DNA of 64,000 nt from a bacterium (lineage in GTDB: Bacteria; CAIWAD01). The stretch spans positions 62,001 to 126,000 of the forward strand of contig JAUIFJ010000002.1 of NCBI GenBank assembly GCA_030429345.1, read 5' to 3'. The notes beneath the pieces are model-generated. The model did no database searches. It worked only from the letters and a program-made list of their open reading frames with translations, and was not told the origin of the DNA. Of this stretch, positions 1 to 35,476 are shown one piece after another. Position 1 is the first letter of the stretch, and each line of letters begins with the position of its first letter. A program made the position numbers and the translations under genes.

Positions 1-313
1 AGCGCCGCAGGTCGACGACGATGCGCTGGCCGATGAAGCCCGTCAGCACCTGCTGGAAATAGCGTGTCACGAAACCGCCGGCGACCAGCAGCAGGAAGAC
101 CAGGATCGTTCCGCGCAGGCCCTCCAGGTCGCCGCCGGCGATGTCCACGTCGATGGCGTGCCGTGTCACAAGGGGAATCGCCGTCTCGAAGAGCGCGGCG
201 CAGATGATCAGCGAGAAGGCGCCGGCGGCCATCCAGCCGTAGGGGCGCAGCATGCCGGTCAGGCGCTTCAGCAGGCTCCAGTCCAGGCCCTTGACATCGC
301 GGCGATCAGGCAT
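1..313 (-). CDS. ABC transporter, second half-transporter subunit (partial, cut by window edge)
   Basis: This is the N-terminal 104 codons of a membrane protein that runs off the left edge. The start ATG lies at 313-311 and overlaps the stop of the upstream ABC gene by 8 bases, so the two are translationally coupled. The visible residues (MPDRRDVKGLDWSLLKRLTG, then hydrophobic stretches around residues 27-50 and 70-85) match the first transmembrane helices of a type I ABC exporter. The ATPase domain lies outside the window. Because the upstream partner has a degenerate catalytic site, this subunit would be expected to carry the competent Walker B glutamate, as in MdlA/MdlB-type heterodimers. 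The position and topology are seen; the pairing is inferred. Confidence 0.85.
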   Translation of the reverse strand, partial: MPDRRDVKGLDWSLLKRLTGMLRPYGWMAAGAFSLIICAALFETAIPLVTRHAIDVDIAGGDLEGLRGTILVFLLLVAGGFVTRYFQQVLTGFIGQRIVVDLRR

Positions 314-4850: not shown

Positions 4851-6005
4851 CTAGAGCGCCAGGCCGGGAATGCAGTGAATCCCCGCATGGCGCACACCTT
4901 CTGTCAACGCTTCGGGTTCATTCCCTACCCGGTGGATCACAAAGGCCTCGGCCGCGCGGTCCGGCATGCGCTCCAGCAGCTTCTGCATCGCCAGGCCGTC
5001 CCGCGGCCGGGGAGTGCGGGTGGACTTGGCTTCCAGCAGGCACAGCCGGCCGTTTCCGCGGTCGAGCAGGAAATCCACTTCCAGCCCCTGGCGATCCCGG
5101 AAGAAGTACAGGTTCCGGGGCAGGCTGCGAAAGAGCCGCGCCTTGCTGATTTCCGAGGCCACCCAGCCTTCGAAGAGCGCTCCCAGGAAGGGCGAGCTCT
5201 CCAGGGCCACTGTATCACGAATGCCCAGCAGATGGCAGACGAGGCCGCTGTCGTTGAAGTAGACCTTCGGCGACTTGAGCAAGCGTTTCCCGAAATTCTC
5301 GTAATACGGCTGTACGACCGTCAGCAGGCCGGTGACTTCCAGGATCGAGAGCCACTGGTTGATGGTGGGAACTGTGATACCTAGTGGGGCCGCCAGTTCG
5401 CTGCGATTGAGCAGTTGGCCGTGTCGTGTGGCAAGTACGGCGATGAAGCGCCGGAAGGTCGCCAGGTCCCGCACATTGGTCAGGGCGCGCACATCCCGTT
5501 CCAGGTAGGTCTGCAGGTAGCTGTTGAACCAGAGGTCCGCCGTGTCCGGTTGTTGCAGGACTTCCGGATACCCGCCATGCAGGAGGCTGACCTTCCTGTG
5601 TTCTTCCACGGAAAAGGGCAGGAGCTGGAACACGGCCGCCCTGCCGGCCATCGATTCGCTGATGCCCTGCATCAAGGGCGCTTCCTGGGAGCCGGTCAGA
5701 AGCCATCCTCCCACTTTACCCGGATCCTGGTCGATCAGGCTGCGAATGTAGGAGGGCAGTTCGGGCGTGTTCTGGATCTCGTCCAGGATGACCGGGAGCC
5801 GCAGGGACTCCAGAAAGGAGCGGGGATCGGACTGGATCCGTTCCACCAGATCCGGATCCTCGAGCAGGTGGTACTGTGCCTTGGGAAAGACCTTGCGCAG
5901 CAGAGTCGTTTTGCCCGCGCGTCTCGGCCCCGTGAGCAGCAATGCCGGAAAGGCCTTTGCCGCACGAAGCACCTCCGAACCCAGGATGCGAGTGGAATAG
6001 CTCAT
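4851..6005 (-). CDS. DUF4143-family ATPase with C-terminal PD-(D/E)XK-like domain
   Basis: This 384-residue AAA-type protein has Walker A GPRRAGKTT near residue 30, Walker B LPVILDEIQ near 75, sensor LLTGSQE near 105, a winged-helix-like middle (LNRSELAAPLGITVPTINQW) and a C-terminal DUF4143 domain with a restriction-like core (EVDFLLDRGNG...LLEAKST). The cellular role of this family is not established. The ATG at 6005 is preferred over the TTG at 6014. No Shine-Dalgarno precedes it; instead the start codon touches a perfect 20-bp inverted repeat that carries a good sigma-70 promoter, so the mRNA is probably leaderless. It converges on the beta-helix gene with 27 bases between stops. Confidence 0.92.
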   Translation of the reverse strand: MSYSTRILGSEVLRAAKAFPALLLTGPRRAGKTTLLRKVFPKAQYHLLEDPDLVERIQSDPRSFLESLRLPVILDEIQNTPELPSYIRSLIDQDPGKVGGWLLTGSQEAPLMQGISESMAGRAAVFQLLPFSVEEHRKVSLLHGGYPEVLQQPDTADLWFNSYLQTYLERDVRALTNVRDLATFRRFIAVLATRHGQLLNRSELAAPLGITVPTINQWLSILEVTGLLTVVQPYYENFGKRLLKSPKVYFNDSGLVCHLLGIRDTVALESSPFLGALFEGWVASEISKARLFRSLPRNLYFFRDRQGLEVDFLLDRGNGRLCLLEAKSTRTPRPRDGLAMQKLLERMPDRAAEAFVIHRVGNEPEALTEGVRHAGIHCIPGLAL

Positions 6006-6046
6006 TGTTGACAATTTTAAAGTTGTACTTTAAAATTGTCAACAAT
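6004..6046. promoter_or_regulatory. Perfect 20-bp inverted repeat with embedded divergent promoters
   Basis: The arms are 6004-6023 and 6027-6046, perfectly complementary, separated by three bases. Toward the ATPase gene the palindrome contains TTGACA (6042-6037), a 17-bp spacer and TAAAAT (6019-6014), with the ATG only 8 bases further. By symmetry the same -35/-10 pair also reads rightward toward the Zn-ribbon gene. It is likely an operator/promoter; the protein that binds it is unknown. Confidence 0.85.
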
Positions 6047-14605: not shown

Positions 14606-14714
14606 CTGCAGGTGAAACCTGCAGCGATTTTTAGTCGGCCGTTGCACGGCCGATTTATTGTATCCAACGGCCGTGCAACGGCCGACCAAAGTTAGCTGCA
14701 TGTGAAACATGCAG
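14606..14714. repeat. REPIN copy 1 (two bipartite REPs in inverted orientation)
   Basis: The left REP is 14606-14652 and the right, inverted REP is 14668-14714, each 47 nt, separated by 15 nt. Order: hairpin A (14606-14624), hairpin B, inverted hairpin B, hairpin A variant CTGCATGTGAAACATGCAG (14696-14714). The change from CTGCAGGT to CTGCATGT is matched by ACCTGCAG to ACATGCAG, so the stem is kept. Confidence 0.92.
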
Positions 14715-14803
14715 GGTTGATTTCCCAAAGACACCCCCCACCATCGAATCCAATCAAACCCGACGAATCAATCCCTTCCTATGAGGATGTTTCGTCCTTG
14801 GAT

Positions 14804-14912
14804 CTTCAGGTGAAACCTGCAGAAAGTGTTCGTCGGCCGTTGCACGGCCGATTCATTGAATCAACCGGCCGTGCAACGGCCGACCAAAGTCAGCTGCATG
14901 TGAAACATGCAG
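14804..14912. repeat. REPIN copy 2
   Basis: This has the same 109-nt layout as REPIN copy 1: left REP 14804-14850 (hairpin A begins CTTCAGGT, one stem mismatch), 15-nt spacer, inverted right REP 14866-14912 with the CTGCATGT variant. It lies in direct orientation to copy 1, with 89 nt between them that hold no gene. Confidence 0.92.
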
Positions 14913-25500: not shown

Positions 25501-25960
25501 GAATACCTTTCTGGTTTGTTCGCTTGAACCGGGGTCAGACTCAGATATGCCCGGCGGGTTTCACGCGCCGGAGGGCAAGGGCTTTCTTTCTTCAAAGCAA
25601 GAACACAGGTCGACGTGACCTGGAATACCTAGCACGGTTGTTGCGACTCACCCGAACAAACACACGGCATTCCAACTCTGTTGACGCACAGCATTCTAGC
25701 ACAAAGGGAACGAACGTCATGGTTCCGACAGGATTCCTTTGGGACAAATTTGGTCTACTTGTCCACTCAGGGCAAGCCTTTTGCAGCCTCGTTTGCAAGG
25801 CGGACTGGGGAGATATCCTTGTTCCAGAGGCCTCGGCAGCCAGAGGAACAGGAGTGGGCGGCCTGTACGGAATCAGGCGTGTTCTGCCGGATATCTATCG
25901 CTCGTGCAGATGCTCTTCCTTACACTATATGGTTGCACACAGGGCCAGGGGAGCCGTGGC
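25501..25960. other. Divergent intergenic region, no gene supported
   Basis: These 460 bases separate the TonB receptor and the first C25 gene. Short open frames exist but show no family features. Upstream regulatory signals of both genes must lie here. I could not identify a convincing -35/-10 pair. TTGACG at 25681-25686 lacks a partner. Confidence 0.5.
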
Positions 25961-28900
25961 ATGAGGCGCATTCTATATCTGTTGCTGAGCCTTTTCGGGT
26001 TGTTCGCAGGAACGATCCCTGCCGCGACTCTATCTCTTGCGCCCTGGGCCGACACCGGTCTGCGTGTCGAGGCAAGGTCCCCCTCCCACTGCCGCATTAC
26101 TCTCGAGATTGCCTCTCTCGAATTCGAAGAGCTCGAACTGGAAGGCCAGACCTGGCGGAAGCTGTCCCTGCCGGGTGCCGCCAATGCCACGGAAGCCGGG
26201 TATCCGGATCTGCCGCTTTTCGCCACCAGCCTGGCGGCGGGAGGGCAGGGAATCCTCTCGGTGCAGCTGGTCGAGGAGCAGGTCGAGACCCTCGAGGGAT
26301 TCCGCGTCGCGCCCTCGCGGGGCTCCCTGGCCGGGGTCGAGCAACCGGAACTCGCTCCCTGGACTTTCGGGCCTGCCTATGGCGAATCCGGCATCTGGCC
26401 CGCCGAGCGCTGGAGCCTCGGAGAGCCTTTCACCTTCCGCGATGTGCAGGGCCAGACCCTGCGCATTCAGCCCTTCCAGGTTGATGCCGGCCGGCAACAG
26501 CTCCATGTCACGACGCGCATGGTGCTGGATGTGAGACTCGACGCCGCTCCGGCCATCGACCCGGCAAAGGAAGAGCTCGACGCGACCTTCCTGGCCGTCT
26601 ACAAGCGGCACTTCGACAATTGGGGCGGGCTGCGCTACGACTACCTGCCGGCCGTGGGGTCGATGATCGTGATCTGCCCCGACGACTGGCTCGACGAGCT
26701 CCTGCCCTATGTGCGCTGGAAGAACGAGCTGGGCCTGGCCACGGAGCTGGTGCCCCTGAGCGCCATCGGGGCCAATGCCTTCCTCATCGACAACTGGCTG
26801 GCGACCCGCTACCAGACGGATCCCTTCACCTTCATCCTGCTGATCGGCGACCACCAGCAGCTGCCGACCCAGTTCTCCTTCGGCTCGGCGCGCGAGACGG
26901 AATACGGCATGATTCTCGGCGGGCCACAGGACCATTACCCGGAAGCGATCGTCGGTCGCTACAGCGCGCAGACGACGGAGGAGCTGGAGATCATGCTCGA
27001 GCGGACGCGGCGCTATGTGCTGGAACCGGATCCCTCGGCCACCTGGTATTCGCGGACCCTCGGCGTGGCTTCGCCGCACCAGGACGGGGACGAGGGGGAG
27101 TCGGACAGCCTGCATATCCGCAATGTGCTCGACAAGCTGCTGACCGGCGACTACACGGAAGCCGTCGGTGTATACGACGACAGCGTGTCGACCCAGTTCC
27201 ATGTGGAGATCAGCGCCGAGATCCACGAGGGTGTCGGGCTGGTCAACTACTGCGGACACGGCAACTTCAACCGCTGGACCAGTCCCAGCTTCTCGACCCA
27301 GCGCGTCGACCTGTTGACCAACACGGATCGCTGGCCCTTCGTGGTCAACGCCGCCTGCAACATCGGCGACTTCACCAACTACGACAACTGCTACGCGGAG
27401 TCCTGGCTGCGCGCGAGCCACGAGGGCGAGCCGACAGGCGGGCTGGCCGTATACGCCTCGACCGTATACGCCGGCTGGAACCCGCCCATGGAGATGCAGG
27501 ACGAGTTCAACGAGCTGCTGGCCCGGGACAGCACGAGGACCTTCGGGGGGCTCTGCATCAACGGCGGCCTGTCCATGGCCGAGACCTACGACACGGGCAC
27601 CAACGAGTTCATTCGCTACGCCATTTTCGGGGATCCCTCGCTGGAGATCCGCACACAGGCGCCTCGCACGATGGAGGTGCAGCATCCGGCGACCTATATG
27701 CCGGATGCGGGACCGATGCAGATTTCCGTGCCCGGCGAACCGGGCGTGCTCGCCGCCATCTCGGTCAACGGCACCCTGGCCAGTTCGAGTTATGCGGACC
27801 AGGAAGGGAACCTGAGCCTGGAACTGCCGGCCGCCTCCGCCCCGGAGGTCCTGCTGCTGAGTGTCAGCGGGGCCAATGTGGTTCCCTATGCCGCGGAAAT
27901 CGCCCAGAACCAGGAACCGGTCCAGGTGCTTGCCTTCGACCCGGTGACGATCCTGGAGGACGAGGCGCTCCGCATCGAGAATGTGCCGGGGTTCTACGAG
28001 GACGCGGACGGAGATTCGATCACCATCGTCGAGGCGACCAGCGACGTGACCGGCTTCACGCTGGATGTGCAGGGAGAAGACCTGGTGGTGATCCCCTCGC
28101 CCAACTGGAGCGGGGCGGCGACGATCACCCTGTCTCTCACGGACGGGAACTATGTTTTCTTCGCCGATCAGCCGATCCAGGTCACGCCGGTCAACGACGC
28201 TCCCCTGCAGGTCCTGCCCTTGCCGGAGTATACGGTGCCGGAGGACGGGCAGCTGGCGATCGCCGACCCGCGTCCCTATTTCGAGGACATCGACGGCCCG
28301 GGAGTCGTCGAGCTGAGCGATCCGCTGGCGGATCACGGCGAGATCACCTGGGACGGCGACAGCCTGCACTTCATTCCCTGGCCGGACTACAGCGGTGTGA
28401 CAGAGATCTACTTCGACCTGAGCGACGGGATCGACACGGCGCAGGCCGGCCCCTTCCCGATCCTGGTGGTGGCGGTCAATGACCCGCCGGCCTATTTCGG
28501 CGACCTGGACAACTACGTGGTCGAGGAGGACGGCAGCCTGCAGCTGCAGCTGTCGGACCTGTTCGGGGACATCGACGGCGATTCGCTGGAATGGCATTAT
28601 ACCTTCATCGCCAACGGCAGCATCGATACCGAGGGGCCGCAGATGGTGATCGCCCCGGAGGCGGACTACTTCGGCGAAATGGCGCTCGAGGTGCGTGTGA
28701 CAGACGGCGAGGAGATCGCCAGCTCGGGCCTGGCCTCGATCACGGTCCTTTCCGTGAACGACGCGCCGGAACTGCTGCAGCCCTTTCCCAACATGAGTTC
28801 CCCCGAAGACAGCCTGCTGCTGGTGGCCGATCTCTACGAACACTTCCGCGACGTGGACGGCGACCCGCTGCAGTTCAGCTTTTCCGTGGACCAGGGCGCC

Positions 28901-29944
28901 CTGGCCCTGGAGGACAGCCTGCTGCTGTATACGCCGCCTCCCGACTTCAACGGGACCGTGCCGGTGCAGCTCTCGGCCTTCGACGGCGAGTTCACGACGG
29001 AGGCCAACGCCTTTTCGTTGACCATCTTTCCGGTGGAGGACGATCTGCAGCAGGTGATCCCCTTCGAGGACCTGGTCTGGGCGGAGGACAGCTCGATCCT
29101 GCTGCCGGGAATTCTCAACCATTTCTTCAGCGTGGACGCGGACACGCTCTTCATCCAGTCCTGGGAAATCCTCGACCCTGAGTTCAGCGGCGAACTGGAG
29201 GAGGATGATCTGCTGATTCACCCCCCGCCCGATTTCGCCGGCGAGAGCACCCTGCGGATCACGGTCGCCGACGACCTGGACCGCAACCAGCTGACGGTGG
29301 ACATTCCGCTGGTGGTCGAGCAGGTCAATGACGCTCCGCAGGTAACGATCTGCAATGCCGCGGAACTGCCCTGCGGTGAAGTGCCCTGGCAAGGGCAGCA
29401 GGAGTTCTGGTGGGCCTTCGAGAACGAGGGGGTCGTCCTGGAACTGGCGGATGTCGAAGGCGGAGAGATGCTGCTGCGCTGGATCGTCAGCGGCAACGAG
29501 GTCCACAGCGAAACCATCCTGCCGGGGCCCTGCACGGCCTACTTCCTGCCCCAGGACAGCCTGCTGCAGGACGAGGACCTGCACATCGAGCTGGTCGACG
29601 GCGACCTGGTCTGGAACCTGGACGGCAGCGAATGCCAGTGGCAGTTCCGTAACGTCCACCTCCAGGAACCGGAGCTGCCCTCCGCCTGGTTCCTGGCGCA
29701 GAATGTGCCCAATCCCTTCAATCCGGATACGCGCATCCGTTTCGGCATGCCTCGGGAAGGGGCTGTGCGCCTGGCGATCTACAACCTGCGCGGGCAGCAG
29801 GTGGCCTTATTGGTGGACGACTTCCTGCCCGCCGGCGAGCACGAGCAGCGCTGGCAGCCGGAAGGGCTGGCCTCCGGAGTCTACCTCTATAGTCTGCAGG
29901 GGAGCGGTTTTCGCAAGACAAGGAAGCTGACCCTGCTGCGTTAG
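25961..29944 (+). CDS. C25 (gingipain-like) cysteine peptidase with cadherin-like repeats and sorting domain, paralog 1
   Basis: This 1327-residue secreted peptidase has a signal peptide MRRILYLLLSLFGLFAGTIPA, an N-terminal prodomain-like region, then the C25 caspase-fold domain with the His/Cys dyad at His433 (NYCGHGN) and Cys466 (VNAACNIGDF). From ~residue 640 it carries about five tandem-95/cadherin-like repeats, each opening near VNDAP and containing an EDG...F.D.DGD motif, which probably bind calcium. It ends with NPFNPDTRIRF...YNLRGQ...ASGVYLYSLQG, a type IX-like sorting domain. ATG 25961 is chosen over upstream frames because it starts the signal peptide and has GGGGAG seven bases before it. 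Confidence 0.92.
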   Translation: MRRILYLLLSLFGLFAGTIPAATLSLAPWADTGLRVEARSPSHCRITLEIASLEFEELELEGQTWRKLSLPGAANATEAGYPDLPLFATSLAAGGQGILSVQLVEEQVETLEGFRVAPSRGSLAGVEQPELAPWTFGPAYGESGIWPAERWSLGEPFTFRDVQGQTLRIQPFQVDAGRQQLHVTTRMVLDVRLDAAPAIDPAKEELDATFLAVYKRHFDNWGGLRYDYLPAVGSMIVICPDDWLDELLPYVRWKNELGLATELVPLSAIGANAFLIDNWLATRYQTDPFTFILLIGDHQQLPTQFSFGSARETEYGMILGGPQDHYPEAIVGRYSAQTTEELEIMLERTRRYVLEPDPSATWYSRTLGVASPHQDGDEGESDSLHIRNVLDKLLTGDYTEAVGVYDDSVSTQFHVEISAEIHEGVGLVNYCGHGNFNRWTSPSFSTQRVDLLTNTDRWPFVVNAACNIGDFTNYDNCYAESWLRASHEGEPTGGLAVYASTVYAGWNPPMEMQDEFNELLARDSTRTFGGLCINGGLSMAETYDTGTNEFIRYAIFGDPSLEIRTQAPRTMEVQHPATYMPDAGPMQISVPGEPGVLAAISVNGTLASSSYADQEGNLSLELPAASAPEVLLLSVSGANVVPYAAEIAQNQEPVQVLAFDPVTILEDEALRIENVPGFYEDADGDSITIVEATSDVTGFTLDVQGEDLVVIPSPNWSGAATITLSLTDGNYVFFADQPIQVTPVNDAPLQVLPLPEYTVPEDGQLAIADPRPYFEDIDGPGVVELSDPLADHGEITWDGDSLHFIPWPDYSGVTEIYFDLSDGIDTAQAGPFPILVVAVNDPPAYFGDLDNYVVEEDGSLQLQLSDLFGDIDGDSLEWHYTFIANGSIDTEGPQMVIAPEADYFGEMALEVRVTDGEEIASSGLASITVLSVNDAPELLQPFPNMSSPEDSLLLVADLYEHFRDVDGDPLQFSFSVDQGALALEDSLLLYTPPPDFNGTVPVQLSAFDGEFTTEANAFSLTIFPVEDDLQQVIPFEDLVWAEDSSILLPGILNHFFSVDADTLFIQSWEILDPEFSGELEEDDLLIHPPPDFAGESTLRITVADDLDRNQLTVDIPLVVEQVNDAPQVTICNAAELPCGEVPWQGQQEFWWAFENEGVVLELADVEGGEMLLRWIVSGNEVHSETILPGPCTAYFLPQDSLLQDEDLHIELVDGDLVWNLDGSECQWQFRNVHLQEPELPSAWFLAQNVPNPFNPDTRIRFGMPREGAVRLAIYNLRGQQVALLVDDFLPAGEHEQRWQPEGLASGVYLYSLQGSGFRKTRKLTLLR

Positions 29945-29960: not shown

Positions 29961-30005
29961 TGGATCATGTGCCAAATATTCCAACTATATTTGGCACATG
30001 ATCCA
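29961..30005. promoter_or_regulatory. Perfect 19-bp inverted repeat overlapping the start codon of the second DUF4143 gene
   Basis: The arms are 29961-29979 and 29987-30005, perfectly complementary, with a 7-base spacer TCCAACT. The ATG at 29998 lies inside the right arm; TATATT (29986-29991) is a possible -10 only six bases before it. Its sequence is unrelated to the palindrome at 6004-6046. Confidence 0.85.
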
Positions 30006-31158
30006 ACGAATGCTCCACCTTCCACACTCCCGATCTTTCTTCCTCATTGGTGCCCGTGCAACAGGAAAGACGGAACTTCTTCGTCAGTCCTTCCCTCAAG
30101 AGGACGCAGTCTGGCTGGATCTGCTCGATCCCGAGCTTTCCAACAGGCTGAATGCGTGGCCCAATGACATGCTGGATCTCATCTCGCCCTACGCTGAACG
30201 GAAAGCGTGGGTTGTCATCGATGAAGTGCAAAAGGCGCCGGCTTTACTGGACCTGGTTCATCAGCAGATCAGTCGAAAGGCTTTCCATTTTGCACTTACC
30301 GGCTCCAGTGCCCGTAAACTGAAACGAGGTGGAGCGAACCTTCTGGCCGGTCGCGCATTCGTCTTGAATCTGCATCCCTTTACCCATTTGGAACTCGGCG
30401 CAGAGTTCGAGCTGGAACAGGTTCTGTCTTTCGGTGCCTTGCCGGAAGCCATTCTACTGCCAGAGATCCGGGATCGACGACGCCTTCTCAAGGCCTACGC
30501 CGGAACCTATCTGCAGGAAGAGATTGTCGCAGAGCAGCTGGTTCGAAATCTTCCGCCTTTTCGGCGCTTTCTGAATATCGTCGGAAGGCACACCGGGGAA
30601 ATTGTCAATGCATCAAACATCGCCCGCGACATCGATTCCAACCCAAAGACTGTTCAGAGGTATTACGAGATCCTGGAAGACACGCTTCTTGGTTTCCATC
30701 TCCCCAGCTTTGATCGCTCGATTCGGCGTCAACAGAGGAAGGCCAGGCGGTTTTATTTCTTTGATACCGGAGTTGCACGTGTTCTCGCGGGACGGATAGA
30801 CTTGCCACTGCTGGAAGGCACTTCCGAGTTCGGGCAGCTGTTCGAGAGCTTCCTCGTAAATGAAGTTCGCCGATTACTGGACTACAATGAACAACAATAC
30901 AAGTTGTCCTTTCTTCGCATTGGCGAAACACGCGAGGTCGACCTGATCGTGGAACACGCGGATGGTCGCCTCTTCCTTTGCGAGATCAAATCGTCCCGAA
31001 AGGTAGACGAGCGTTATGCGCGTACGCTGAATTCCCTGTCTGATTCCTTCGACAACGCTGCTTGCCGTCTCCTGTCCTGCGACCCTGTCACTCAGCAATT
31101 CGACAAGGTCCTGGCGCTTCATTGGCGTGAGGGATTGGCAGAAATCTGTGCCTCCTAG
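29998..31158 (+). CDS. DUF4143-family ATPase with PD-(D/E)XK-like C-terminus, copy 2
   Basis: This 386-residue AAA-type protein has Walker A GARATGKTE near residue 20, Walker B AWVVIDEVQKAP near 65, sensor ALTGSSARKL, a winged-helix segment (ASNIARDIDSNPKTVQRYYE) and a DUF4143 end with EVDLIVEHADGRLFLCEIKSS. It is only distantly similar to copy 1 at 4851-6005. It is less GC-rich than the flanking C25 genes and sits alone between them, in the same direction. The start is ATG 29998 (inside the palindrome) or ATG 30010 just after it; neither has a Shine-Dalgarno. This suggests a laterally acquired single-gene unit with its own regulation. Confidence 0.92.
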   Translation: MIQRMLHLPHSRSFFLIGARATGKTELLRQSFPQEDAVWLDLLDPELSNRLNAWPNDMLDLISPYAERKAWVVIDEVQKAPALLDLVHQQISRKAFHFALTGSSARKLKRGGANLLAGRAFVLNLHPFTHLELGAEFELEQVLSFGALPEAILLPEIRDRRRLLKAYAGTYLQEEIVAEQLVRNLPPFRRFLNIVGRHTGEIVNASNIARDIDSNPKTVQRYYEILEDTLLGFHLPSFDRSIRRQQRKARRFYFFDTGVARVLAGRIDLPLLEGTSEFGQLFESFLVNEVRRLLDYNEQQYKLSFLRIGETREVDLIVEHADGRLFLCEIKSSRKVDERYARTLNSLSDSFDNAACRLLSCDPVTQQFDKVLALHWREGLAEICAS

Positions 31159-31516: not shown

Positions 31517-34500
31517 ATGGCACCGCATCGCTTGCATCTGACCGGTTTCTTCAGCCTGGCGGCAATGACCGCCCAGGCCGCCACCCTGTCCCTCGCTCCG
31601 GATCTGCAGACCGGCCTGCGCGTCGAGACCCTCGACGCCACCACCTGCCGAATCGTCTGCGAGATCGCCTCCATCGAAAGCGAATCGATTGAACTGGAAG
31701 GCAGGAGCTGGAACAAGCTCAGCCTTTCCGAGGGCGCTCCCAGCCTGGTGGCCGGCGCTCCCGACCTGCCGACTCTCTCCCTGAGCCTGGCTGTCGGCGG
31801 CGAAGGCATTCGCAGGGTGCGCGTGGTGGAGCAGGAAGAGCTTCTGCTGGAAGCCTTTCCCGTCGCTCCCTCCCGCGGCAACCTGAGTCGCCTGGCGGAT
31901 CCCGCCACCGCCCCCTGGGTTTTCGGGGAAGCCTATGAAAGAGCGCAGTCCTGGCCCGAGAGTTCCTGGCAGACCAGCGAGACCTTCCAGTTCCGCGATG
32001 TCCAGGGGCAGAGCCTGCGCCTGCAGCCCTTCCGCTATGACGCCGCCAGCGAAGAGCTGACCGTCCAGACGCGCCTGGTACTCGAGGTCGACCTGGATCC
32101 GGCTCCGCCCGTCGATCCCGCGGTCCACGAACTGGATGCCACCTTCCTGGAGATCTACAAGAACCATTTCCACAACTGGGGCGGCCTGCGCTACGATTAC
32201 ATGCCGGCCGTCGGTTCGATGCTGGTGCTCTGCCCGGACGAGTGGCTTCCGGAGCTGCAGCCCTTCGTCGAGTGGAAGACCCGCCTGGGCCTGCAGACCA
32301 CCCTGGTGCCGCTGAGTGTCACCGGTTCGACCTCCGCGGACATCTACACCTGGCTGGAAGACCAGTGGCTGGTCAATCCCTACACCTTCGTCACCTTGGT
32401 GGGAGACCACCAGCAGCTGCCCTCGAAACTGTTCTACGGCAGCGCCGCCGACGCCTCCTATGGCATGTTTCTTGGCGGCGACCAGTACCCGGAGGCAATT
32501 ATCGGACGTTTCTCGGCGCAGAACATTGAGGACCTTCAAGTGCAGCTGGAGCGCACACACCGCTACACAATGGAGCCGGATCCATCGGCCACATGGTACG
32601 GTCGGGCGCTGGGTATCGCTTCGGACGAAGGCACCGGCGATGACGGTGAATACGACTACGAGCACATGGAATACATACGGCAGGAGCTGCTTGCCGCGGA
32701 GTATCATGAGGTGGACCAGGTCTACGCCACCGACCCGGAAATCAGCTACCTGGACGTGATGCAAAGCATCGAAACCGGCGTCAGCGTGGTGAACTATGCA
32801 GGGCACGGCAGTAACCTGCGCTGGGCCAGCCCACACTTTCCGGATTACCGTGTTCAGCAACTGCAGAACACGGACCGCTGGCCGGCCGTGGTGTCGGTTG
32901 CCTGCGACAATGGCGCTTTCATGAATCTGGACGCCTGTTTTGCGGAAACCTGGTTGCGAGCCAGCCATGAAGGCGAGCCGACAGGTGCGATTGCCATGTA
33001 TGCCGCCACCACTCTGATCGGGTGGTCGCCGCCGATGGAGATGCAGGACGAGTTCAATCACCTGCTGGCCAGCGGCACGAGCAAGGTCTTCGGGGGCCTG
33101 TGCATCAATGGCGGCCTGTCGATGATCGAGCACTATGCCTGGTCCGGCCCGAGCGAAATGCTGTGCCTGGCTATTTTCGGCGACCCCAGCATCCGGCTGC
33201 GCACGATGCAGCCGATCCAGCTCGCTGTCGAGCACCCGGCCACCTACATGCCAGAGGACGGCAGCTTGCTGGTCAGTGTCAGCGGCGCACCGGGCGCCCT
33301 GGCCGCCTTGTCGCTCAACGGCGTGCTCGTCAGTTCCGGCTATACGGACGGCGCGGGCCAGGTCCAGCTCAGCCTGCCCGCCCTGGGTTCGCCGGAGACC
33401 CTGCACCTGATGGTCAGCGCCGACAATGCCAGCCCCTACGAGGCCCAGATCCGGCAGAACGAGATGCCCGTCCTCGCCACCCCCTTCGGGGAGCTGGAAG
33501 GACCGGAGGACCAGACCCTGGAACTGGGCGGAATCCTGGACCATTTCACGGACCCCGACGGCGACCCCTTGAGTCTGGTGGAAGTCAGTGCCGACATCAC
33601 CGGATTCGGCTTCGATCAGCAGGTGGGCAGCCTGCTCGTCATGCCGCCGCCCAACTGGAACGGCGAGGTCACCCTGACCTATTCGCTGAGCGATGGCAAC
33701 TACGTGATCTTCGCCGATCAGCGCATCGAGATCCTGCCGGTCAACGATCTGCCGGTCGCGCTGCAGCCCTTCCCGACCCTGCAGGGCCAGGAGGACGCCC
33801 CCTTGCGCATTGCCGATCCCCTGTCCGGCTTCCGGGACATCGACGGCCCTGGCAGCCTGCAGCTGCTGGACCCAATCGCCTCCCACGGCTCCCTCTACTG
33901 GGATGGAACGGATCTGCTGTTCGTGGCGCCTCCCGATTTCTGGGGCAGTACCGAAATCGCCTTCCTGCTCAGCGACGGGCTGGACAGCCTGGCCTGCGGC
34001 CCCTACCCGGTGCAGGTCCTGCCTGCCAACGACGCTCCCCAGTACTTCGGCGACCTGGACAGCTACGTGGTCGAGGAGGACGGCCAGCTGCTGCTGCAGC
34101 TGAGCGAGCTCTTCGGCGACATCGACGGGGACTCCCTTGCCTGGGGCGAGTACAGCATCGAGAACGGCCAGCTGGAATTCGGCGGAGCCTTCGCCGGCCT
34201 GCACCCGGCGCCGGATTTCCACGGCGAGCTGCTGCTGGAGCTGAGTGTCAGCGACGGCCAGGAGTCGGCCAGCAGCGGTGCGGTGACGATCGAGGTCCTG
34301 CCGGTCAACGACGCCCCCGAACTGCTGCTGGACTTCGAAGACGGCATCTGCCTGGAAGACAGCCTGCTGCAGGTGGCGAATGTATACAACCACTTCCGCG
34401 ACGTGGACGGCGACAGCCTGCAGTTCAGCTTCAGCGCCGAACCAGGCGAGCTGAGCCTGCAGGACAGCCTGCTGTATTACACGCCGCCGCAGGACTACAA

Positions 34501-35476
34501 CGGCCCCGTGGCAATCACCCTGAGCGCCGGCGACGGAGTCGTTGTCACACAGGCCAACCCCTTCGGCCTGGTCGTCATTCCCGTGCAGGACGCTCTGCAG
34601 CTGGTGCTGCCTTTCGAGCAGCTGCAGCTGGAAGAGGACGCCCCGCAGGCGCTGACGGACATGCTGGCCCACTTCCACAGCATTGACGGCGATTCGCTCT
34701 GGATCGACTCTTTCGCCTTCGATCCGGCCGGCTTCAGCGCCGAGCTGGAAGGGGATTCCCTGTGGATCACGCCGCCCGCCGATTTCTCCGGCAGCGCGAC
34801 CCTGTGGATCACCGCCCGCACGGAACTGCCCGGCGACACGCTGAGCGCACCCGTCGCGCTGCAGGTCCAGGCCGTCAACGACAGCCCCTGGGCCGAGTTC
34901 TGCGGCGATTTCCCCGAGCCCCAGGGCGACTACGAGGACTTCCTCTCGCAGATGGGTCTGTCCTTCTGGGACGTGGATTCGGACAGCCTCGAGTTCAGCT
35001 GGTTCCTGGACGGCGAGCTGCTGTTCAGCGAGTGGCGGGCCGTGGAAGCCGATACGACCTGGTGCGCCCAGGCCCCGGACGAGCTTGCGGACCTGCTGCT
35101 TCCCGGCCTGCTGCATCTTGAACTTGGCGATGGCGAATTCATTCTCAACCAGGACGGCCAGCTGGCGGCCTGGGAACTGGCTGGCAGCAGCCTGGCCGAA
35201 GCCACCCTGCCCACGGAGTGGCACCTGGACCAGAATGCTCCCAATCCCTTCAATCCCAGTACCCGCATTCGCTTCGGCATGCCCCGGGAAGGCCGCGTCC
35301 GCCTGGCGATCTACAACCTGCGCGGCCAGCTGGTCGAGCAGCTGCTGGATGCTTCGCTGCCCGCGGGCGAGCACGAAGAGGTCTGGCAGCCCCGCGGCCT
35401 GGCTTCCGGCGTCTACCTCTATGTCCTTCAGGGGCAGGACTTCCAGCAGACCCGACGTCTGACGCTGCTGAAATAG
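31517..35476 (+). CDS. C25 (gingipain-like) cysteine peptidase with cadherin-like repeats and sorting domain, paralog 2
   Basis: This 1319-residue paralog of the 25961 gene has the same architecture: signal peptide MAPHRLHLTGFFSLAAMTAQA, C25 domain with His430 (NYAGHGS) and Cys463 (VACDNGAF), VNDAP/EDG-type cadherin-like repeats, and the C-terminal NPFNPSTRIRF...YNLRGQ...ASGVYLYVLQG sorting domain ending RRLTLLK. ATG 31517 is supported by AAGGAG eight bases upstream (31503-31508). The C25 core between about 32450 and 33060 uses more AT-ending codons than the rest and shares IASxEGxGDDGEYDxEHM with paralog 3. A strong terminator follows. Confidence 0.92.
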   Translation: MAPHRLHLTGFFSLAAMTAQAATLSLAPDLQTGLRVETLDATTCRIVCEIASIESESIELEGRSWNKLSLSEGAPSLVAGAPDLPTLSLSLAVGGEGIRRVRVVEQEELLLEAFPVAPSRGNLSRLADPATAPWVFGEAYERAQSWPESSWQTSETFQFRDVQGQSLRLQPFRYDAASEELTVQTRLVLEVDLDPAPPVDPAVHELDATFLEIYKNHFHNWGGLRYDYMPAVGSMLVLCPDEWLPELQPFVEWKTRLGLQTTLVPLSVTGSTSADIYTWLEDQWLVNPYTFVTLVGDHQQLPSKLFYGSAADASYGMFLGGDQYPEAIIGRFSAQNIEDLQVQLERTHRYTMEPDPSATWYGRALGIASDEGTGDDGEYDYEHMEYIRQELLAAEYHEVDQVYATDPEISYLDVMQSIETGVSVVNYAGHGSNLRWASPHFPDYRVQQLQNTDRWPAVVSVACDNGAFMNLDACFAETWLRASHEGEPTGAIAMYAATTLIGWSPPMEMQDEFNHLLASGTSKVFGGLCINGGLSMIEHYAWSGPSEMLCLAIFGDPSIRLRTMQPIQLAVEHPATYMPEDGSLLVSVSGAPGALAALSLNGVLVSSGYTDGAGQVQLSLPALGSPETLHLMVSADNASPYEAQIRQNEMPVLATPFGELEGPEDQTLELGGILDHFTDPDGDPLSLVEVSADITGFGFDQQVGSLLVMPPPNWNGEVTLTYSLSDGNYVIFADQRIEILPVNDLPVALQPFPTLQGQEDAPLRIADPLSGFRDIDGPGSLQLLDPIASHGSLYWDGTDLLFVAPPDFWGSTEIAFLLSDGLDSLACGPYPVQVLPANDAPQYFGDLDSYVVEEDGQLLLQLSELFGDIDGDSLAWGEYSIENGQLEFGGAFAGLHPAPDFHGELLLELSVSDGQESASSGAVTIEVLPVNDAPELLLDFEDGICLEDSLLQVANVYNHFRDVDGDSLQFSFSAEPGELSLQDSLLYYTPPQDYNGPVAITLSAGDGVVVTQANPFGLVVIPVQDALQLVLPFEQLQLEEDAPQALTDMLAHFHSIDGDSLWIDSFAFDPAGFSAELEGDSLWITPPADFSGSATLWITARTELPGDTLSAPVALQVQAVNDSPWAEFCGDFPEPQGDYEDFLSQMGLSFWDVDSDSLEFSWFLDGELLFSEWRAVEADTTWCAQAPDELADLLLPGLLHLELGDGEFILNQDGQLAAWELAGSSLAEATLPTEWHLDQNAPNPFNPSTRIRFGMPREGRVRLAIYNLRGQLVEQLLDASLPAGEHEEVWQPRGLASGVYLYVLQGQDFQQTRRLTLLK

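Follow-up and report, generated by a model that had tools for sequence, protein, structure and literature searches.

Why should a gene for an ATPase-nuclease begin inside a perfect palindrome? The question is raised by a DUF4143 gene, here called gene 2, which starts at position 29998 of the window, that is, the whole 64,000-nucleotide stretch of DNA that was analysed. A sequence-only reading of the window had described perfect 19-bp arms enclosing this ATG, a TATATT six bases before it and no Shine-Dalgarno, all of which the sequence bears out: the two arms are 19/19 complementary (TGGATCATGTGCCAAATAT), they are separated by a loop of 7 and the ATG lies within the right arm, which also overlaps the -10 box and the probable transcription start. 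No Shine-Dalgarno is found in the sequence before this ATG, and the -35 region (GATCAT, 17 bp upstream of the -10 box) is weak. The features of gene 2 and of a second such gene in the window, gene 1, are as follows.

29961-29979, forward strand: left arm of the palindrome, putative operator half-site 1; its core GCCA (29971-29974) occupies -27 to -24, positions that covary
29987-30005, forward strand: right arm of the palindrome, putative operator half-site 2; its core TGGC (29992-29995) occupies -6 to -3
29983, no strand: dyad axis of the palindrome, at exactly -15.0 relative to the first base of the start codon, which is the axis of the subfamily
29986-29991, forward strand: -10 box TATATT, starting at -12, six bases before the ATG at 29998
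29998-31158, forward strand: gene 2, AAA_14 + DUF4143 ATPase-nuclease (PDC-S01), 386 aa, with a probable leaderless start
30031-30393, forward strand: AAA_14 ATPase domain, residues 12-132
30550-30759, forward strand: winged helix-turn-helix, residues 185-254, from the AlphaFold2 secondary structure, the domain name being our reading
30640-30681, forward strand: recognition helix (216-228) together with residue 215; covariation with operator bases at residues 215, 216, 217 and 221
30823-31149, forward strand: PD-(D/E)XK nuclease-like domain, with E313/D315/E329/K331 conserved
4851-6005, reverse strand: gene 1, AAA_14 + DUF4143 (PDC-S01), from another clade
6004-6023 and 6027-6046, reverse strand: gene 1 palindrome, perfect 20-bp arms, axis at -20 from its own ATG

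The gene 1 palindrome holds TTGACA (6042-6037) and, after a 17-bp spacer, TAAAAT (6019-6014), with eight bases separating the latter from the ATG at 6005. These two palindromes are the only perfect inverted repeats in the 64-kb window with arms of at least 18 bp and a spacing of at most 60. In the 4.2-Mb genome, each arm of both palindromes is unique to its own gene when up to 3 mismatches are allowed, and the two palindromes have no arm sequence in common, as had been noted. The argument that two of two copies carry such an element does not hold genome-wide: the genome has seven DUF4143 genes, and long perfect arms are present at two of them. Another of the seven, L003, shows by eye an imperfect TTGAAAT..ATTTCAA dyad. 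Gene 2 sits alone between two C25 peptidase genes, with no regulator adjacent. These gingipain-type genes (25739-29944 and 31517-35476) agree in their set of cadherin-like/Big repeat domains and match a Por secretion tail. Elsewhere in the window, at 14606-14912, two large imperfect inverted repeats have arms of 47 and 54 bp and contain GGCCGTGCAACGGCCGAC and CTGCAGGTGAAACCTGCAG modules.

Both encoded proteins score above the Pfam cut-offs for AAA_14 and DUF4143 (72.5 and 116.5 bits for gene 2, 82.3 and 157.3 bits for gene 1) and strongly match the PADLOC PDC-S01 models, with E values as low as 3e-62 and 6e-97. The AlphaFold2 model of the gene 2 protein has a mean pLDDT of 93.3 and places the predicted winged helix between the ATPase and the PD-(D/E)XK parts. 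In the compared proteins, E313, D315 and E329 are invariant and K331 nearly so. The best fold match in the PDB is 2qby_B, Cdc6/Orc1 on origin DNA, with a global TM-score of 0.28, and Card1 is among the matches listed. A sequence search of solved structures returned none for the single protein, and a profile search gave generic AAA+ proteins among the matches listed. According to PMC12988326, PDC-S01 has an ATPase fused to a PD-(D/E)XK domain and ranks fourth in frequency among prokaryotic defence systems, experimental validation being still awaited for most such defence candidates. The window proteins correspond to PDC-S01 by the models and by this fusion. Gene 2 encodes a candidate anti-phage protein of a kind that is very common yet still unexplained. 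Our literature search, which included passages of PMC12988326 and PMC13356809, found nothing on a PDC-S01 promoter, operator or autoregulation. Searches on DUF4143, COG1373, AAA_14 with palindromes and leaderless autoregulated ATPases likewise yielded titles, abstract openings and passages of PMC4406477 in which the element is absent.

Palindromes prove to be enriched at DUF4143 starts relative to other genes, as the sequence-only reading had anticipated. Perfect arms of at least 15 bp were found at 11/167 DUF4143 starts (6.6%) versus 3/373 controls (0.8%, Fisher p=3e-4), and a mismatch-tolerant score of at least 11 was reached at 41 of the 167 (24.6%) versus 16 of the 373 (4.3%, p=2e-11). The controls were 373 other genes at the same loci, anchored on the start codon, and the start codons of the compared genes were assigned by rule. 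Perfect arms of at least 14 bp occurred five times among 70 DUF4143 genes from varied genomes versus never in 350 dinucleotide shuffles, and a further 95 genes gave 11 cases versus none in 475 shuffles. By this comparison, the gene 2 palindrome is an extreme case of a family-wide element.

Two genes from genome G047, L065 and L068, have a long inverted repeat upstream (32-bp arms with one mismatch and 26-bp perfect arms, respectively) besides a weaker dyad at the start. DUF4143 genes reach very high numbers in some genomes, with 34 copies in G047 and 19 in G042, genomes of 1.7-2.2 Mb. Some Bacteroidales and relatives (L106, L117, L126, L137, L153) have tandem AAAATCGGGAGTAGTACTTCGGATTTTGATTG-like repeats upstream of the DUF4143 start; these arrays are iteron-like, with ACTCCCGATTTT half-sites similar to those of Bdellovibrio-type genes.

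The position of the symmetry is precise. When all DUF4143 genes were aligned on the ATG, mean symmetry gave a single sharp peak with its axis at -15.0 (0.368 versus 0.273 in controls), and at least 9 of 15 positions matched around this axis in 25/154 DUF4143 genes versus 3/373 controls. The same axis was again the top peak in another 70 genes (0.437, z 6.5) and in 128 genes of the gene 2 subfamily in a third set (0.514, z 7.0). At least 9/15 matches were found at -15 in 95/273 subfamily genes, thus many members have a weak, shifted or no dyad. A single axis for all DUF4143 clades had to be abandoned: outside the gene 2 subfamily dyads lie at about -20 and at -31 to -34, spread without a single sharp peak. 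By eye, the dyads of other clades (for example L011, L013, L017, L043, L174 and L184) often lie symmetrically around the -35 box and their half-sites are TTGAAA/TTTCAA-like, which amounts to a second architecture.

The promoter keeps a fixed register with the start codon. Among 352 DUF4143 genes, 38% have a -10 box (TATAAT with at most one mismatch) starting at -15 to -12 versus 5.6% of controls, and 25% have TTGAC at -37 to -34 versus 2.1%; Shine-Dalgarno-like motifs are depleted (8.8% versus 30%). Given the usual 6-7 nt from the -10 box to the start point, transcription would begin at the ATG or within a few bases of it, and we infer that these mRNAs are leaderless, the start point approximately coinciding with the ATG. 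Gene 2 conforms to this pattern: its -10 box closely precedes the start codon and a Shine-Dalgarno is absent. With a start at the ATG, the left half-site would fall in the promoter spacer just past the -35 box and the right one on the -10 box, start point and ATG. In gene 2 the dyad thus lies over the gene's own promoter in a fixed register, as an autoregulatory operator would.

The same observations bear on the proposal that the palindrome was left by the insertion of a mobile element, as a footprint or terminal repeat. The distribution of DUF4143 genes is patchy, one genome may have many copies (34 in one case), the genes stand alone, and gene 2 is placed between two C25 peptidase genes, all of which would suit a mobile element. 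However, the arms occur at their own gene only and are not repeated at the 3' end or at the other copies as terminal or dispersed repeats would have, and they keep a single-base register with the promoter and the ATG. We therefore regard this origin as very improbable. Of the mechanisms that had been suggested, the insertion footprint thus falls to the uniqueness of the arms and the sharp promoter register, while an autoregulatory operator is favoured by position and symmetry and, as described below, by covariation with the helix and by prospective prediction.

The bases of the two half-sites also change together. In 92 subfamily genes, left and right positions around -15.0 were Watson-Crick complementary at a frequency of 0.410 versus 0.331 after shuffling (z 8.2), the other axes tested reaching z 3.2 at most. 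The result was repeated in 70 new genes (0.433 versus 0.328, z 9.3), where neighbouring axes gave 2.5 or less. The covarying pairs mostly join -23 to -28 with -7 to -2. The half-sites are about 20 bp apart, centre to centre, and flank the -10 box. Mismatches in the dyad are as often G.T as A.C (15 each), which favours a DNA dyad over an RNA stem. The comparison thus indicates selection for the dyad symmetry, acting on the DNA. An RNA hairpin governing translation could have been suspected, since the start codon lies inside the perfect arms. Yet the left arm would not be transcribed given a start at the ATG, the equal mismatch classes reveal no preference for G.U on the sense strand, where a transcribed stem should tolerate it, and the covarying core tracks a DNA-recognition helix (see below). 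We consider such a hairpin scarcely credible.

We then asked, as the sequence-only reading had proposed, whether the palindrome covaries with the winged helix. In genes with a dyad (at least 8/15 matches, n=52), protein window 210-220 alone tracked half-site similarity beyond overall similarity (partial r 0.311, 0/500 permutations), and at dyad thresholds of 9 and 10 the window was 211-221 (r 0.39-0.41, 0/300 permutations). Genes unselected for the dyad gave mixed peaks, at the N-terminus and the wing, and later window analyses were limited to genes with a dyad; at looser thresholds of 6-7, other protein windows scored equal to the helix. A residue-by-base scan of 139 genes (effective number 99), leaving aside the pair of residue 2 and base +3, an association due to coding overlap, gave as top core associations 216/-24, 215/-26 and 217/-25, then 180/-26 and 221/-27, with z of 9-12, where permutations reached 7.1 at most. 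The non-helix residues 180 and 245 also score; together with the windows at loose thresholds, this means that shared ancestry is not fully removed. The covariation nevertheless centres on the recognition helix, where residues 215, 216, 217 and 221 vary with operator bases -24 to -27 and -6 to -3.

The pairings appear chemically sensible. Arginine (13/15) or histidine (6/7) at residue 216 goes with C at -24, hence G on the opposite strand, aspartate (14/15) or glutamate (1/1) with G (C opposite), and valine (8/8), threonine (13/14), isoleucine (5/6) or alanine (5/5) with A (T opposite). K217 is found with C in 62/64 cases and R221 with G in 8/11. The residue 216 rule was fixed in writing before further genomes were searched. 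Applied to 120 new genes with a listed residue 216, unselected for symmetry, it gave the right base at -6 in 57% (35% permuted) and at -24 in 48% (34%); in the 75 genes with at least 7 dyad matches, these values rose to 68% and 65% (37% and 40% permuted). None of 5000 permutations reached these results. Moreover, residues 215, 216, 217 and 221 ranked the cognate operator among all operators at a median percentile of 0.068, with 58% in the top tenth, after relatives at least 50% identical had been dropped from training; control quadruples of other variable residues gave a mean percentile of 0.46.

Gene 2 itself fits the code: R221 with G, N215 with C, K217 with C and P216 with A correspond to its half-site GCCA (-27 to -24), and its operator ranks at percentile 0.04. 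By comparison, then, this operator appears to be recognised by the product of its own gene. This accounts for the lack of common sequence between the gene 2 and gene 1 palindromes. The earlier idea of a private palindrome for each ATPase was correct, and divergence of the recognition helix explains it: every copy carries recognition residues, and therefore an operator, private to itself. Where one genome has several copies, their operators differ from one another no less than operators of separate genomes do. Half-site identity is 0.462 between co-resident copies versus 0.456 between genomes at equal protein identity, and near-identical operators make up 0.8% of co-resident pairs versus 1.3% of those from different genomes.

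All together, these comparisons establish the position, symmetry, covariation and code of the element, and we conclude that the palindrome is very probably the private operator of its own gene, lying over a leaderless promoter, read by the gene's own winged helix and probably repressive. Two inverted half-sites would flank the -10 box of a promoter that starts at the ATG. Two protomers would bind them with residues at the N-terminal end of the recognition helix (215, 216, 217 and 221), and the bound protomers would sterically exclude RNA polymerase. A potentially harmful ATPase-nuclease would thereby cap its own level, and expression would rise when the protein is drawn away. In this model, direct binding, repression rather than activation, leaderless transcription in the cell and the nature of the trigger are inferred.

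The same operator and protein might instead activate the promoter, or repress and activate it according to level, like C proteins. The position of the dyad shows promoter overlap and nothing more, and the C-dependent transcript of PvuII is both leaderless and positively autoregulated (PMC2997769). However, the half-sites cover the spacer and the -10/start region, from which a dimer should keep polymerase away, and an activator should be needless at the many promoters with good -35 and -10 boxes, which makes activation unlikely. The site could also, besides being an operator, be a sequence-specific address at which the PD-(D/E)XK nuclease of the protein acts. The invariance of E313, D315 and E329, with K331 nearly so, the presence of Card1 among the fold matches and the use of the same recognition helix would agree with this, but, unless some additional trigger were needed, it would be self-destructive for a nuclease to cut the promoter from which it is expressed, and we judge this reading improbable. 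Doubtful too is the broader idea that the PDC-S01 proteins are a large and diversifying group of ATPase-nucleases, each binding DNA at an address of its own, orthogonal to the others and with a readable recognition code, and that the same address directs their action on invading DNA; if so, the operator sequence would report target specificity.

The operator model by itself does not account for one feature: the perfect arms, 19 bp in gene 2 and up to 26 bp in L068, exceed the covarying half-site of about 10 bp. Template-switch correction of quasi-palindromes is a possible cause of this excess. For PDC-S01, the operator would offer a first mechanistic handle, with predicted operators for many copies, a leaderless start and a residue-to-base code. 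It makes binding, induction and trigger directly measurable, and the code is open to single substitutions.

How does this arrangement compare with known systems? The C proteins of restriction-modification systems have operator boxes over their own promoter. They resemble the present case in their leaderless transcript and in the control of a nuclease (for example C.PvuII, PMC2997769). However, C proteins are small, separate helix-turn-helix regulators, whereas in the present case the ATPase-nuclease would do the regulating, through its own winged helix. Gene 2 is not such a C protein: it encodes a 386-aa AAA+ protein flanked by C25 peptidase genes, not a small helix-turn-helix protein adjacent to restriction and methylase genes. 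Orc1/Cdc6 initiators likewise join an AAA+ ATPase to a DNA-binding winged helix, but the TM-score is low (0.28), the present protein has an extra nuclease domain and its site is its own promoter. Finally, autorepressors of toxin-antitoxin and defence systems, such as CapW and BrxR, have a palindromic operator that overlies the promoter of an operon with defence or toxic functions. Those are separate regulator proteins, whereas in the system proposed here one gene would be both effector and regulator.
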